From: Methylocapsa acidiphila B2 | GTDB taxonomy: Bacteria > Pseudomonadota > Alphaproteobacteria > Rhizobiales > Beijerinckiaceae | Reading direction: 5' to 3' | Length of the DNA stretch: 64,000 nt | Assembly (NCBI RefSeq): GCF_000427445.1 | Contig: NZ_KE386496.1 | Span: 868,001-932,000, forward strand | Shown here: positions 29,918 to 33,426 of the stretch, in pieces | Numbering within the stretch: the stretch's first letter is position 1 | How the letters are laid out: the number at the start of each line of letters is the position of its first letter | Position numbers and translations under genes: made by a program | The notes under the pieces: model-generated | Told to the model about the DNA's origin: nothing | The model's database searches: none | Seen by the model: only the letters and a program-made list of their open reading frames with translations

Positions 29918-30691
29918 ATGCGAGATAGACAAGTTTCGCCCCGGCTGCGACCGCTCGTCGCCGGCAATTGGAAGATGAACGGATTGCGGAAGAATCTCCC
30001 GGAGATCGCCAAAATTTGCGCGGCGGCGGCCGAGGGCGGCGCGGGCGAGGCCGAACTCGTCATTTGCCCGCCCGCCACCATGATCATGGCCGCCGCGTCG
30101 ATTTGCGAGGGCGCTCCAGTCGCGCTCGGCGGCCAACATTGCCATGCCGAGCCCTCCGGGCCTTTCACCGGCGATATTTCGGCGGAGATGCTGAAGGACG
30201 CCGGCGCCAAATATGTGATTCTCGGTCATTCCGAGCGGAGATCCGGCCATAACGAAGGAAACGAAGCCGTCCGGGAAAAGGCCGTCGCCGCCTTTCGCGC
30301 CGGCTTGACTGCAATCGTCTGCGTCGGCGAGACCAAGGCGGAGCGGGAGGCGGGTGAGGCGCTGCCTGTCGTCGGCGCCCAGCTCGCCGGCTCGATCCCA
30401 CTGAACTCGAGCTCAGAAACCCTCGTCATCGCCTATGAGCCAGTCTGGGCGATCGGCACGGGCTTGACGCCAACGACCCATGACATCGCCGAGATGCATC
30501 GGTTCATTCGCGGCCAGATTCACGAGCATTTGCCGGGCCGAGGCGACGCAATCCGCATTCTTTACGGCGGCTCGGTGAAGCCCGGCAACGCCGGCGAACT
30601 GATGCGCGTCGAGAACGTCGACGGCGCGCTCGTCGGCGGGGCCAGCCTGACATCCGACGATTTCATGGCGATAGCGGGGGTCTATCGGTAA
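29918..30691 (+). CDS. tpiA: Triosephosphate isomerase
   Basis: A 257-residue TIM-barrel enzyme interconverting dihydroxyacetone phosphate and glyceraldehyde-3-phosphate. The catalytic Asn-Lys is in AGNWKMNG, the His in VILGHSERR and the Glu in IAYEPVWAIGTG; ILYGGSVKPGNAGE and the final DGALVGGASL are also present. The start ATG 29918 gives normal length; upstream codons in frame back to 29735 are not protein-like. It is divergent from ppiD. In most relatives secG follows directly, but here a three-gene minus-strand cassette intervenes. Confidence 0.96.
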   Translation: MRDRQVSPRLRPLVAGNWKMNGLRKNLPEIAKICAAAAEGGAGEAELVICPPATMIMAAASICEGAPVALGGQHCHAEPSGPFTGDISAEMLKDAGAKYVILGHSERRSGHNEGNEAVREKAVAAFRAGLTAIVCVGETKAEREAGEALPVVGAQLAGSIPLNSSSETLVIAYEPVWAIGTGLTPTTHDIAEMHRFIRGQIHEHLPGRGDAIRILYGGSVKPGNAGELMRVENVDGALVGGASLTSDDFMAIAGVYR

Positions 30692-30715
30692 CGCTTTGGG
30701 TTGTGACAAGAATCG

Positions 30716-31177
30716 CTATTCGTCGCGGTTTTTACCATCCCACTTGGCCGCCATCGCTTTGCTGCCCAAGGCCCGCTCAACTTTTGGCTTCGACGGTTTT
30801 GCTGACTTCGCAGCTTTTTGCTTGGGTTCTGCTTTGGCTTTCGCGGCCGGCTCGACGGAGCCTTGTGCGAGTTCGCTAATTCTCCGACGACGCCATTCCG
30901 CGGAGGCCGTCGCTATGTCGGGGTGGTTCTTGTCGAGCTTCTTTATGAGCGAAGCGGCGGCCGGATCGGCTAAGCCATCGAGAACATGCGCAAACGCGTC
31001 ACCGCCAATCGCATCATAAACCGCGCGCACTCGAGCAAGATTGATCGTCTTCGCCTTGAGTTGGCCTACGACGAGCGCGCGCGCGGCTTTATTGATCTCT
31101 GCCGCAATATCAGAAAAAATTTGTGGGTTTTCGGCGATTATGCGCAGCACGCCGAAGCCGTCTACGTCAATTGACAC
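30716..31177 (-). CDS. Small protein with histone-H1-like basic tail, third gene of ParA cassette
   Basis: A 153-residue protein of unknown family. Residues 1-105 are predicted mainly helical, with the block VRAVYDAIGGDAFAHVLDGL and ASLIKKLDKNHPDIATASAE. Residues 110-135 are Ala/Lys/Pro repeats (AKAEPKQKAAKSAKPSKPK), like histone H1 or other nucleic-acid-binding tails. The start is GTG 31177, with GGGAG 6 bases upstream. It overlaps the end of the ParA gene by 11 bases, so translation is probably coupled. By position it could be the DNA-binding or adaptor partner of the ATPase, but no ParB motif is seen. It converges with tpiA, 24 bases apart. Confidence 0.7.
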   Translation of the reverse strand: MSIDVDGFGVLRIIAENPQIFSDIAAEINKAARALVVGQLKAKTINLARVRAVYDAIGGDAFAHVLDGLADPAAASLIKKLDKNHPDIATASAEWRRRRISELAQGSVEPAAKAKAEPKQKAAKSAKPSKPKVERALGSKAMAAKWDGKNRDE

Positions 31178-32057
31178 GGAGCACTCCCTTCAGCTCTTGA
31201 ACGAGTTGGTCGAGCACAGAGATGACCTCCCCGTACTTTTGTTTGAATGTCGGCGCACCGTCATTCGCCAAGGCTCCGGCGAGCGCCGCTGCTTGCTGCA
31301 CCCTAGTATTGAGCAAGCAAATCCCCGGATCCTTGGCTTTGGCCTCGACTTTAAGCTGTGCGAGAATATCTTGGTGTTGTTTAACATTCTTCTGCCATCG
31401 GGTGACGAGAACATGCGGCAAAAGCCTCGGCTTCGGTAAAACGCCCGGCGGCTCCTTCCAGATGATCTGACAGAAGGCATCCAACCCGAGTATCGAGACG
31501 CGGTCGGGAATGGTGGGCACAATGACGAGATCGCTTGCTCTAATAGCAATCTCGGTTAAGGGAGAGATGCCTGGCGGACAATCAAAAATAACATAAGTAT
31601 AGGCCTCCTTGAGGGGCAGAAATTCTTGCTCGAAGAGCTTCCAGGTTTGCCCCTCAATAGCCCTCATGCTGTATTCTCGTTCAGTAAGATTATAGATAAT
31701 TTCGCGCTCCACGAGCCGGAGATGTGGCCCGCACGGCAAGAAAGAGATTTTTAGCGGGTCTCCTTTATGCGTCGTTCGGCTAACTGCATGACGAATTCTT
31801 GGCGCGAGCCGTGCTGGCTCCCGTGTAATCAGGCGAAGCGCGAGAAAAGCGTCTATCGTTCGACCTTCCTCGATCATCGTCGCCAAAAGACCGTCGCCCG
31901 CCAAGCACGCCGAGGCGCTGGCCTGGGGGTCGAGATCAACGACCAGAATCGAGGCCGTGGGATCGTCCGCCGCCAAGGCTTCGGCGAGGCTGACCACCGT
32001 CGTCGTCTTGCCGACGCCGCCTTTCATATTGGCGATCGCGATCATTTTTCCGGCCAT
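31167..32057 (-). CDS. ParA/MinD-type ATPase, second gene of cassette
   Basis: A 296-residue P-loop ATPase of the ParA superfamily. The deviant Walker A KGGVGKTT (residues 12-19) with both the signature lysine Lys12 and Lys17, the switch DLDPQ (41-45) and the Walker B-type YVIFDCPPG are intact, so ATP-driven dimerisation is likely. There is no N-terminal HTH, as in small type Ib or chromosomal ParAs. Between residues 95 and 165 it has an insert (SRTTHKGDPLKISFLPCGPH) seen in Soj-like orphan ParAs. The ATG 32055-32057 shares one base with the stop of the upstream nuclease-like gene (TAATG). No parS-like site or ParB gene is nearby. Confidence 0.9.
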   Translation of the reverse strand: MAGKMIAIANMKGGVGKTTTVVSLAEALAADDPTASILVVDLDPQASASACLAGDGLLATMIEEGRTIDAFLALRLITREPARLAPRIRHAVSRTTHKGDPLKISFLPCGPHLRLVEREIIYNLTEREYSMRAIEGQTWKLFEQEFLPLKEAYTYVIFDCPPGISPLTEIAIRASDLVIVPTIPDRVSILGLDAFCQIIWKEPPGVLPKPRLLPHVLVTRWQKNVKQHQDILAQLKVEAKAKDPGICLLNTRVQQAAALAGALANDGAPTFKQKYGEVISVLDQLVQELKGVLRVN

Positions 32058-32860
32058 TAGCGCTGTCCTTGCGTGGCGCGGATGAGAACGCTTTTCTGCG
32101 CCTCTGTGAGACGCGTCTCCAAAAACCCCTCGATCGTCGTCGTCAGCGTGGATTTGCGGACCGGATCGACCAGAATTTCGCAGCCGTCTCCAGCTGAAGG
32201 ATCGCGCATCCGGATCAAGCCGATTCCATGCTCGGCGCAATGATTTTCGATCTCGGCGAGCTTGGCTTCGGATTTCGTGCCTTCGGGCAAATGCCAAACC
32301 AAATGGCCGAAATGCGTGTAACGCGTCTGCGCGAGCGCTTCATGGACCGAAAGAACCGAACAGCCGGTCTCGGTCTTCAACTCGAAACTATGGACGTCGA
32401 CCTGCGCGCCGGGCAGGTACTTGAACCGCATCGCGCTGACCAGAATGAAGTCCGGCCGCGCCCAAAGGCCTCTCGCCGGGCCTTTCGCGGAGGTGTCTTG
32501 CACAATGGCGACGGAATCTGGCGGAAGGTCCAGCCCCTGCCGAAATCCGCCTTCGAGATAGGCCTGGAGCGGCTGCATCAGCTTGACTTCGGGCCAGGGC
32601 GCGGCGGTCTCGGCGGCGGCGGCAGGCTGCTGAGATCCATTCGTCGCGGCCAGGAAAATCTGGCCGTTTTGGCCGCGCAGTCGCCCAATCTTGCCTTTCT
32701 TGAGCAGAATATCGCGGGCCGCGAAATAAATCTCCGGGCCGATTTGATGCTCCAGTTGACGCGACAGCATCACCCGCATGACGCGGTTGAGGACCGGCGT
32801 CCCGTCGCGCGGCAACAAGGGCAGGATGTGGCTCGCCAAGGCCTCTGGCGTGAACTCCAT
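32057..32860 (-). CDS. Winged-helix plus PD-(D/E)XK nuclease-like protein, first gene of cassette
   Basis: A 267-residue protein of unknown family. Residues 1-72 look like a winged helix (VLNRVMRVMLSRQLEHQI, then ILLKKGKIGRLRGQNGQIFL as wing). The second part has the order of a restriction-endonuclease-like core: Glu91 in a helix (EVKLMQPLQAYLEG), Pro136-Asp137 in ARPDFILVS, Glu160-Leu-Lys162 in VHSFELKTE, and Gln178 in HEALAQTRYTHFGHLVWHL. This Glu...PD...ExK pattern is the PD-(D/E)XK signature, but it is assigned by eye. The ATG 32860 is preceded by AAGG at 8-9 bases. It is the first gene of an overlapping three-gene operon with a ParA ATPase. Confidence 0.7.
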   Translation of the reverse strand: MEFTPEALASHILPLLPRDGTPVLNRVMRVMLSRQLEHQIGPEIYFAARDILLKKGKIGRLRGQNGQIFLAATNGSQQPAAAAETAAPWPEVKLMQPLQAYLEGGFRQGLDLPPDSVAIVQDTSAKGPARGLWARPDFILVSAMRFKYLPGAQVDVHSFELKTETGCSVLSVHEALAQTRYTHFGHLVWHLPEGTKSEAKLAEIENHCAEHGIGLIRMRDPSAGDGCEILVDPVRKSTLTTTIEGFLETRLTEAQKSVLIRATQGQR

Positions 32861-32870
32861 GTGCCGCCTT

Positions 32871-32930
32871 GACTAAAATCGAATGAATAAAATGAATTGC
32901 GTTCAAACACGTATATAACAAACGTAGGCG
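32871..32930 (-). promoter_or_regulatory. AT-rich upstream region of the ParA cassette with near-direct repeats
   Basis: The 60 bases before the cassette are the most A/T-rich of the locus. CAAAC-AC-GTA (32904-32913) and CAAAC-GTA (32919-32926) form a near-direct repeat 15 bases apart on the plus strand, around TATATA. This could be an operator for the winged-helix protein or the promoter itself; no clean -35/-10 pair is seen. Confidence 0.3.
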
Positions 32931-33048
32931 GTGCAATAGAGAAAATCCTTGCGCCTGGAGGCGTCAACGTCCTCGGCGCCGACGCTTGCCGCGGCCGCTG
33001 CTTGCCGATAAAGAGCAGTTCCGAGGCATAGCGAGGCTATTTTTTTCC

Positions 33049-33426
33049 ATGCAGTCGATCTTGATCGTCATTCACCTTATGATTGTGGTCGCCTTGGTGG
33101 TGACCGTGCTCCTGCAACGATCGGAGGGCGGCGCTCTGGGCGTCGGCGGCAGCGGATTCATGACCGGGCGCGGCCAGGCCAATGTTCTGACGCGGGCGAC
33201 GGCGATTCTCGCTGGCTTGTTTTTCGCCACCAGCCTCGGCTTGACCGTTCTCGCGAAGCTGAATCAGGCGCCCCCCGTGATCATCCCGAGCGCTGCGACG
33301 AGCCCGGCCAATGAAGCGCCGGCTCAAGGCAATTTGCTGGATCAATTGAAACGGTTGGACAATCGCACCCCGGCGACGCCGCCTGACGGCCAGCCGAGCG
33401 CGCCGGAAACGCCGGCTCAAAAGTAA
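33049..33426 (+). CDS. secG: Preprotein translocase subunit SecG
   Basis: A 125-residue SecG of the SecYEG channel. Two membrane helices are visible: IVIHLMIVVALVVTVLLQRS (residues 5-24) and ATAILAGLFFATSLGLTVL. Between them lies the conserved GGALGVGGSGFMTGRGQANV loop. A long Pro/Ala/Gln-rich C-terminal tail is typical for alphaproteobacteria. The start ATG 33049 follows the T-rich TATTTTTTTCC leader. It is normally next to tpiA; here about 2.3 kb of accessory DNA separates them. pyrG follows 110 bases later. Confidence 0.93.
   Translation: MQSILIVIHLMIVVALVVTVLLQRSEGGALGVGGSGFMTGRGQANVLTRATAILAGLFFATSLGLTVLAKLNQAPPVIIPSAATSPANEAPAQGNLLDQLKRLDNRTPATPPDGQPSAPETPAQK

Follow-up and report, generated by a model that had tools for sequence, protein, structure and literature searches.

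ParA-family ATPases undergo ATP-driven dimerisation and coat the nucleoid non-specifically. In conjugative and transferred-DNA (T-DNA) systems, VirC1, VirC2 and the relaxase combine a ParA-like protein with a small partner and an enzyme that cleaves DNA. Here, we analysed a three-gene operon of Methylocapsa acidiphila B2 that encodes a winged-helix protein with a PD-(D/E)XK nuclease fold (ORF1, for open reading frame 1), a ParA-type ATPase and a small protein with a basic tail. The operon lies in a stretch of 64,000 nucleotides, referred to as the window. Its closest described counterparts are the positioning ATPases of the ParA/MinD (A/D) group and their partners (Soj/ParA, McdA-McdB, PpfA and ParC), with which it shares intact ParA motifs, a translationally coupled small gene and a charged, disordered partner terminus. 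The excerpt available from one report (PMC10241942) calls many ParA/MinD ATPases orphans, with partners too diverse to recognise, and describes an extreme diversity of partners, which engage the ATPase via a positively charged, disordered N terminus; this N terminus also appears in an excerpt of a second report (PMC11321042). Unlike these partners, the small protein of the operon falls outside the partner families in the libraries searched and carries its charge at the C terminus; the operon also differs in its optional nuclease and in having no known cargo. With a probability of roughly 0.5, we consider the operon to encode an uncharacterised type of ParA/adaptor pair, for which the nuclease would be an optional cargo or effector.

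The three genes occupy the minus strand of the window, whose contig (C2) belongs to a two-contig, 4.10 Mb genome. ORF1 (32057..32860, 267 amino acids) is followed by the ParA gene (31167..32057, 296 amino acids) and the small gene (30716..31177, 153 amino acids, GTG start). ORF1 and the ParA gene overlap by 1 base, their stop and start codons sharing that base (TAATG), and the ParA and small genes overlap by 11 bases. The operon sits between two plus-strand genes that we take to be tpiA (stop at 30691) and secG (ORF from 32986), names recognised from the sequences and not by search. An earlier note on this DNA, made from its letters alone, had described the same arrangement, and the coordinates confirm it.

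An ORF1 profile, scanned against a genome collection of 84,980 species, gave 18 relatives. Six belonged to trios in the same order (L061, L062, L063, L064, L065 and L067), one was a degraded copy in genome G007, one (L068) was an ORF1 overlapping a ParA start at a contig end, and the remaining ten had no match to the ParA or small protein of the trio at E 0.05. Counts from the genome searches are lower bounds, because only the best few candidates were scored per genome: with ORF1 as a single query, 3 of 60 related genomes (own genome included) and 5 of 385 in the class, where the four besides the own one are weak (E 8.7e-5 to 3.5e-4); with the ORF1 profile, 10 of 397 genomes of the order, three of these through the winged helix alone in long ORFs; and with the small protein, 8 of 397 genomes of the order, 12 of 248 of the family (counting the own genome and the degraded G007) and, in G603's family, 3 of 8 genomes. 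After fetching 20 neighbourhoods, we assembled 21 intact operons that join ParA to the small gene, drawn from several families of the order, a set that leaves out the degraded G007 copy, L068, the divergent loci L122-L126 and L079. An adjacent ORF1 was present in 10 of these operons and absent from 11. The earlier note had allowed that the trio might never be found together elsewhere; all three recur in the order of the window at 10 intact loci, window included, and the gene set exceeds chance.

The gene overlaps are conserved as well. The ParA and small genes overlap by 4 to 23 bases in all 21 operons, and ORF1 overlaps ParA by 1 to 4 bases in eight of the nine trios with a placeable ParA start, the ninth (L121) having a 2-base gap. 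The fetched stretches of the 11 operons lacking ORF1 held no remnant of it (sole match, E 0.97); the absence is less certain at L117, where about 740 bases of contig remain upstream of ParA. In a tree of 41 ParA proteins, all 21 operon ParAs fell into one clade (support 96/99), set apart from 14 other ParAs and 6 divergent nuclease-linked ones. This tree includes the 14 other ParAs that could be extracted from 35 loci, drew a tool warning for long branches among these other rows, and uses an over-long frame for L108, in which the script failed to place the ParA start. ORF1 presence was scattered across it, with 6 changes, at least 5 of them forced by well-supported branches; a tree of ORF1 itself (11 rows) had no starred branch. 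Since ORF1 occurs in 10 of the 21 operons and changes presence six times on the ParA tree, ParA and the small gene look like the core.

Selection on the two-gene form points the same way. In the closest operons, which lack ORF1, the ratio of nonsynonymous to synonymous differences (pN/pS) was 0.16 to 0.25 for ParA and 0.22 to 0.24 for the small protein, indicating purifying selection that maintains the pair without the nuclease gene. The trio is found in Methylobacterium trifolii (L067), and Methylobacterium-like genomes have just the pair. Several Methylobacterium-like genomes have groEL-side or transporter-side flanks in common with or without ORF1, which fits ORF1 loss at one old site. The earlier note had proposed an autonomous system, either a defence module in which ATP-driven assembly controls a nuclease or a partition-like device left from a mobile element. 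The autonomous, recurring operon stands; control of a nuclease is unlikely to be its core function, because 11 of the 21 operons have no adjacent nuclease.

The small protein is the proposed partner or adaptor of ParA. Its predicted structure has a helical head starting at residue 7 (predicted local distance difference test score [pLDDT], about 80), and residues 116-153 score below 50 and are modelled as disordered. Fold searches with this model gave nothing below E 2.2, and its sequence had no convincing match in the PDB, the best being a designed protein (E 0.0097). No usable family was found in Pfam, NCBIfam, PADLOC or PHROGs; a Pfam scan of 20 members of the small-protein family hit 4 families, each in one member. 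The tail (residues 106-153; 30719..30862, minus strand) has a net charge of +7. It is rich in Lys, Ala, Pro and Ser, much as the earlier note had read it, and its Lys/Ala/Pro-rich composition is histone H1-like. Basic residues outnumber acidic ones across the last 45 residues in all 21 small proteins, and the net charge from residue 106 onward ranges from +5 to +13.

Near the C terminus, the tail carries a motif, L-x4-[M/F]-x-A, represented in the window by LGSKAMAA (residues 137-144; 30746..30769, minus strand). By script the motif occurs in 15 of the 21 tails, against a mean of 0.13 in shuffled sequences and no count as high in 2000 shuffles, a significance that is overstated because the pattern was picked after viewing the alignment and from related sequences. 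In L117 the match falls where the helical part ends, so 14 of 21 is the safer count. Both the basic tail and the motif occur in loci with and without ORF1; the tail therefore more likely serves ParA or DNA than ORF1, and the motif suggests as target ParA, DNA or something else common to both kinds of locus. Coupling of the small gene to parA, as in McdB-type partners, holds in all 21 operons. The positively charged, disordered N terminus given for such partners in the excerpted reports (PMC10241942 and PMC11321042) is absent here: residues 1-25 carry a net charge of 0 or below in 19 of the 21 proteins (-3 in the window) and of +2 in the other two. Because its charge sits at the opposite end, we treat the small protein as a variant and not as a partner of the McdB type.

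The ParA protein is complete. The MKGGVGKTT and DLDPQ motifs are intact, as the earlier note had reported, and Lys12 (the signature lysine), Lys17, Asp41 and Asp159 are invariant in all 7 rows of alignment A4, which places the protein in the ParA/MinD group. It scored 98.7 bits against Pfam AAA_31 (cut-off 27), well above its 28 bits against the VirC1 model PF07015 (cut-off 24). The operon resembles VirC1-VirC2-relaxase in joining a ParA to a small protein and a nuclease, and ParA passes the VirC1 cut-off. However, AAA_31 fits far better, ORF1 is a PD-(D/E)XK protein and not a relaxase, and no transfer genes were recognised nearby.

Partition-type ParA profiles also fit this protein, as they would a component of ParABS (type I partition), and it matched the partition-type phage family phrog_164 at 4.8e-40. 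A plasmid, prophage or integrative element might therefore have left the operon behind as a partition or maintenance module, a reading that could also draw on distant versions found beside tyrosine integrases (described below). We regard such an origin as unlikely. ParA reached only 87.9 bits against the NCBIfam partition equivalog NF041546, under its cut-off of 180. Neither the small protein nor ORF1, the sole other operon genes, matched a ParB-like family, and positions 30600-33100 contained no parS-like repeat array, only short two- or three-copy matches that look like chance and lie mostly inside genes. The small protein was found on none of 72,556 plasmids. ORF1 relatives were found on 2 of these, weakly and without the other two genes, and in none of 50,697 phages; viral contigs yielded one distant set, and none for the small protein. 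Searching the plasmids with divergent queries and the phages with the L079 set gave nothing new.

Evidence for mobility was also sparse around the operons. No PF00589 integrase was found within 60 kb on the same contig in any of 13 genomes (other recombinases and transposases were not searched); this check covered 12 of the 21 operons and the divergent L122 of genome G580, with G984, G876, G625 and L061-L067 outside it. The nearest such integrase was 65 kb away, six of the 13 contigs had none, and several contigs are short. The same chromosomal site is moreover kept in some groups: in L061, L062, L063 and L065, the trio lies between hprK (ChvG-HprK side) and ahcY. These four genomes are labelled as several families, and one label (the metagenome-assembled genome Rhizobium sp. 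Q54) may be wrong. Other copies lie beside groEL, lon, uvrD and other genes, and the divergent L122 lies beside proB (names by eye). A role in TnsA-like transposition was considered and dropped since no transposase gene was recognised beside intact operons.

Within the genus, the operon appears to be an insertion. The gap between tpiA and secG measured 150 to 465 bp in all 10 same-genus genomes in which both genes were placed, compared with 2,348 bp in the window by the same measure; G004 and G013 (L058 and L059; no tpiA match) and G007 and G012 (no secG match) were left out. This supports insertion relative to the sister species, and the operon is overall patchy and chromosomal. In G007, a decaying copy (L013, 909-3574) lies beside tpiA, with a stop in ParA and a truncated ORF1; HicB-like and transposase-like ORFs, both recognised by eye, adjoin it. 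Base composition adds little on the cassette: GC content at third codon positions is 0.743 for ORF1, close to the values of its neighbours (0.753-0.797), and lower for ParA (0.623) and the small gene (0.604). GC falls to 0.492 in the middle of ParA (31500-31800), compared with 0.612 for the window, and a mosaic history is possible. The operon promoter likely lies in the divergent intergenic region between ORF1 and secG (32861..32985, GC 0.488), where a promoter and terminator scan was uninformative and found no promoter-like consensus site.

The fold of ORF1, which the earlier note had described as winged-helix plus PD-(D/E)XK-like, is well supported. An AlphaFold model from a 17-row alignment (pLDDT, 88.6; predicted template modelling score, 0.76) consists of a winged helix (residues 1-71; 32648..32860, minus strand; secondary structure H-H-H-E-E) followed by the alpha-beta order of the restriction-endonuclease fold (residues 90-250; 32111..32593, minus strand), and on this model we confidently assign both domains. 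Foldseek against the PDB gave a sole match below E 0.001, to 3dnx (SPO1766, of unknown function; E 7.4e-4). Further matches, at E 0.016 and above, included MspJI and winged-helix proteins such as 2mh2 and F93; those for residues 1-71 were at E 0.02 and above. Glu91, Pro136-Asp137, Glu160 and Lys162 are invariant in all 17 rows of alignment A6 (window included), and the E...PD...ExK site is complete in all 10 trio ORF1s. ORF1 thus combines the fold and the signature of the PD-(D/E)XK superfamily, as do 3dnx and MspJI, and is a putative DNA nuclease. It differs from these restriction-type nucleases in the weakness of the structural likeness, in having no convincing PDB sequence match (the single protein gave none at E 1, the profile four weak ones at E 0.46 and above) and in its operon partner, a ParA. 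ORF1 fitted none of the families of Pfam, NCBIfam, PADLOC or PHROGs. Between ORF1 pairs pN/pS was 0.34 to 0.51, values from more divergent pairs with synonymous changes partly near saturation.

The intact site bears on whether ORF1 is an enzyme at all. The operon could encode a housekeeping factor of chromosome organisation, acting as a nucleoid-associated protein or segregation accessory, with the nuclease-fold gene as a DNA-binding regulator and not a nuclease. Such a role would suit its chromosomal location, the purifying selection, the stable sites within families and the H1-like tail. We find it improbable, given that ORF1 retains every catalytic position, that the small protein is very patchy across the order and that a copy is decaying in the sister genome G007.

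An intact nuclease site and a patchy distribution speak for anti-phage or anti-plasmid defence, with ParA and the small protein patrolling DNA and licensing or delivering the winged-helix nuclease onto foreign DNA. Relatives of ORF1 provide some hints in this direction. Its winged helix recurs as the N terminus of ORFs of about 1,050-1,110 amino acids (L094, L095, L096 and L044); in L094, the one scanned, a Pfam N6_N4 DNA methylase domain follows, and the others are alike by eye, so that an ORF1-type winged helix also heads DNA methyltransferase-type ORFs. A distant stand-alone relative of ORF1 (L073, 7581-8777) lies among DndC, DndD/PbeC and HNH genes of phosphorothioation-type defence. On an IMG/VR contig, classed as viral (L079, 5911-9971), a distant nuclease-type ORF overlaps a ParA gene; a 113-residue ORF and, shortly after, a tyrosine integrase come next, possibly as parts of an integrative element, and genomes G713, G754 and G625 contain similar sets. 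L073 and these divergent sets are the main hints towards defence. L079 speaks for a mobile origin as well, as do stand-alone ORF1 relatives beside a tyrosine integrase (L069) and, on a Paraburkholderia plasmid, after a gene annotated as a site-specific integrase. The third ORFs of the divergent sets resemble each other (27-33% to the first). Homology of the window small protein to those of L079, L091, L093 and L097 is not claimed (hhalign probability, 2.6). In genome G580, the small protein of a divergent trio is recognisable (E 4e-10), and ORF1 and ParA occur again as a second pair.

Defence, which we rank second among the readings, is possible but less likely for the operon as a whole, since 11 of the 21 operons have no adjacent nuclease. 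In the loci read (flanks of L117 and L118 seen in part), no defence genes were recognised by eye, and the flanks look like housekeeping genes. No known anti-phage system in PADLOC 2.0.0 fits the operon: ORF1 had no match, the small protein had a weak partial match to LmuA (E 0.0036), and the P-loop stretch of ParA had weak partial matches to PDC-M28B (1.1e-5 and 0.0025) and mad8 (0.012). A specific variant would have a ParA carpet and the small adaptor hold the winged-helix nuclease, withholding cleavage on the chromosome coated by ATP-ParA and releasing it on ParA-poor incoming DNA. We think this variant a long shot; if true, it would amount to spatial discrimination of self from non-self, a type of immunity that we did not find described in the literature searched.

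According to the model that we favour, a ParA/adaptor pair with an optional nuclease, the core consists of ParA and the co-translated small protein as its partner. ATP-dimerised ParA would coat the nucleoid non-specifically. The folded head of the small protein may bind cargo or oligomerise, and its disordered basic tail, with the terminal L-x4-[M/F]-x-A motif, would touch DNA and trigger the ATPase. ORF1 would be an add-on, whether cargo or effector; the core would position it on DNA or restrain it there, and it was probably lost repeatedly. Of the earlier interpretation, this model keeps the autonomous, recurring and inserted operon and the restriction-endonuclease fold; it gives up the nuclease as the core and, as a weak case, the partition remnant of a mobile element.

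Several observations weigh against this model. Reported partners use the N terminus in the excerpts available (PMC10241942 and PMC11321042), and the basic part of the small protein is C-terminal, its own N terminus being neutral or acidic in most members and modelled as largely helical. The small-protein model is itself moderate, both in the confidence of the head and in its best PDB match (E 2.2). The operons lacking ORF1 come without an identified cargo, and in those genomes ORF1 may possibly lie elsewhere, given that the best few candidates were scored per genome. The small-protein tree is less resolved than the ParA tree, with 4 changes in ORF1 presence, 2 of them forced, and gain of ORF1 instead of loss would also fit. 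Other close pairs are less constrained (pN/pS, 0.19 to 0.51 for ParA and 0.42 to 0.59 for the small protein, from the best 7 pairs per gene).

None of the titles and abstract openings listed from the open-licence literature, a scope with subscription papers and preprints mostly outside it, names such a trio. For the many ParA/MinD ATPases called orphans, the operon gives a candidate partner family, linked to ParA by gene overlap in all 21 operons and with its charged tail at the end opposite to the reported one. Natural operons with and without the nuclease are available, and carriage by Methylobacterium makes the system testable. Should the nuclease prove to be carried by ParA, this kind of positioning would reach enzymes that cleave DNA and possibly also immunity.

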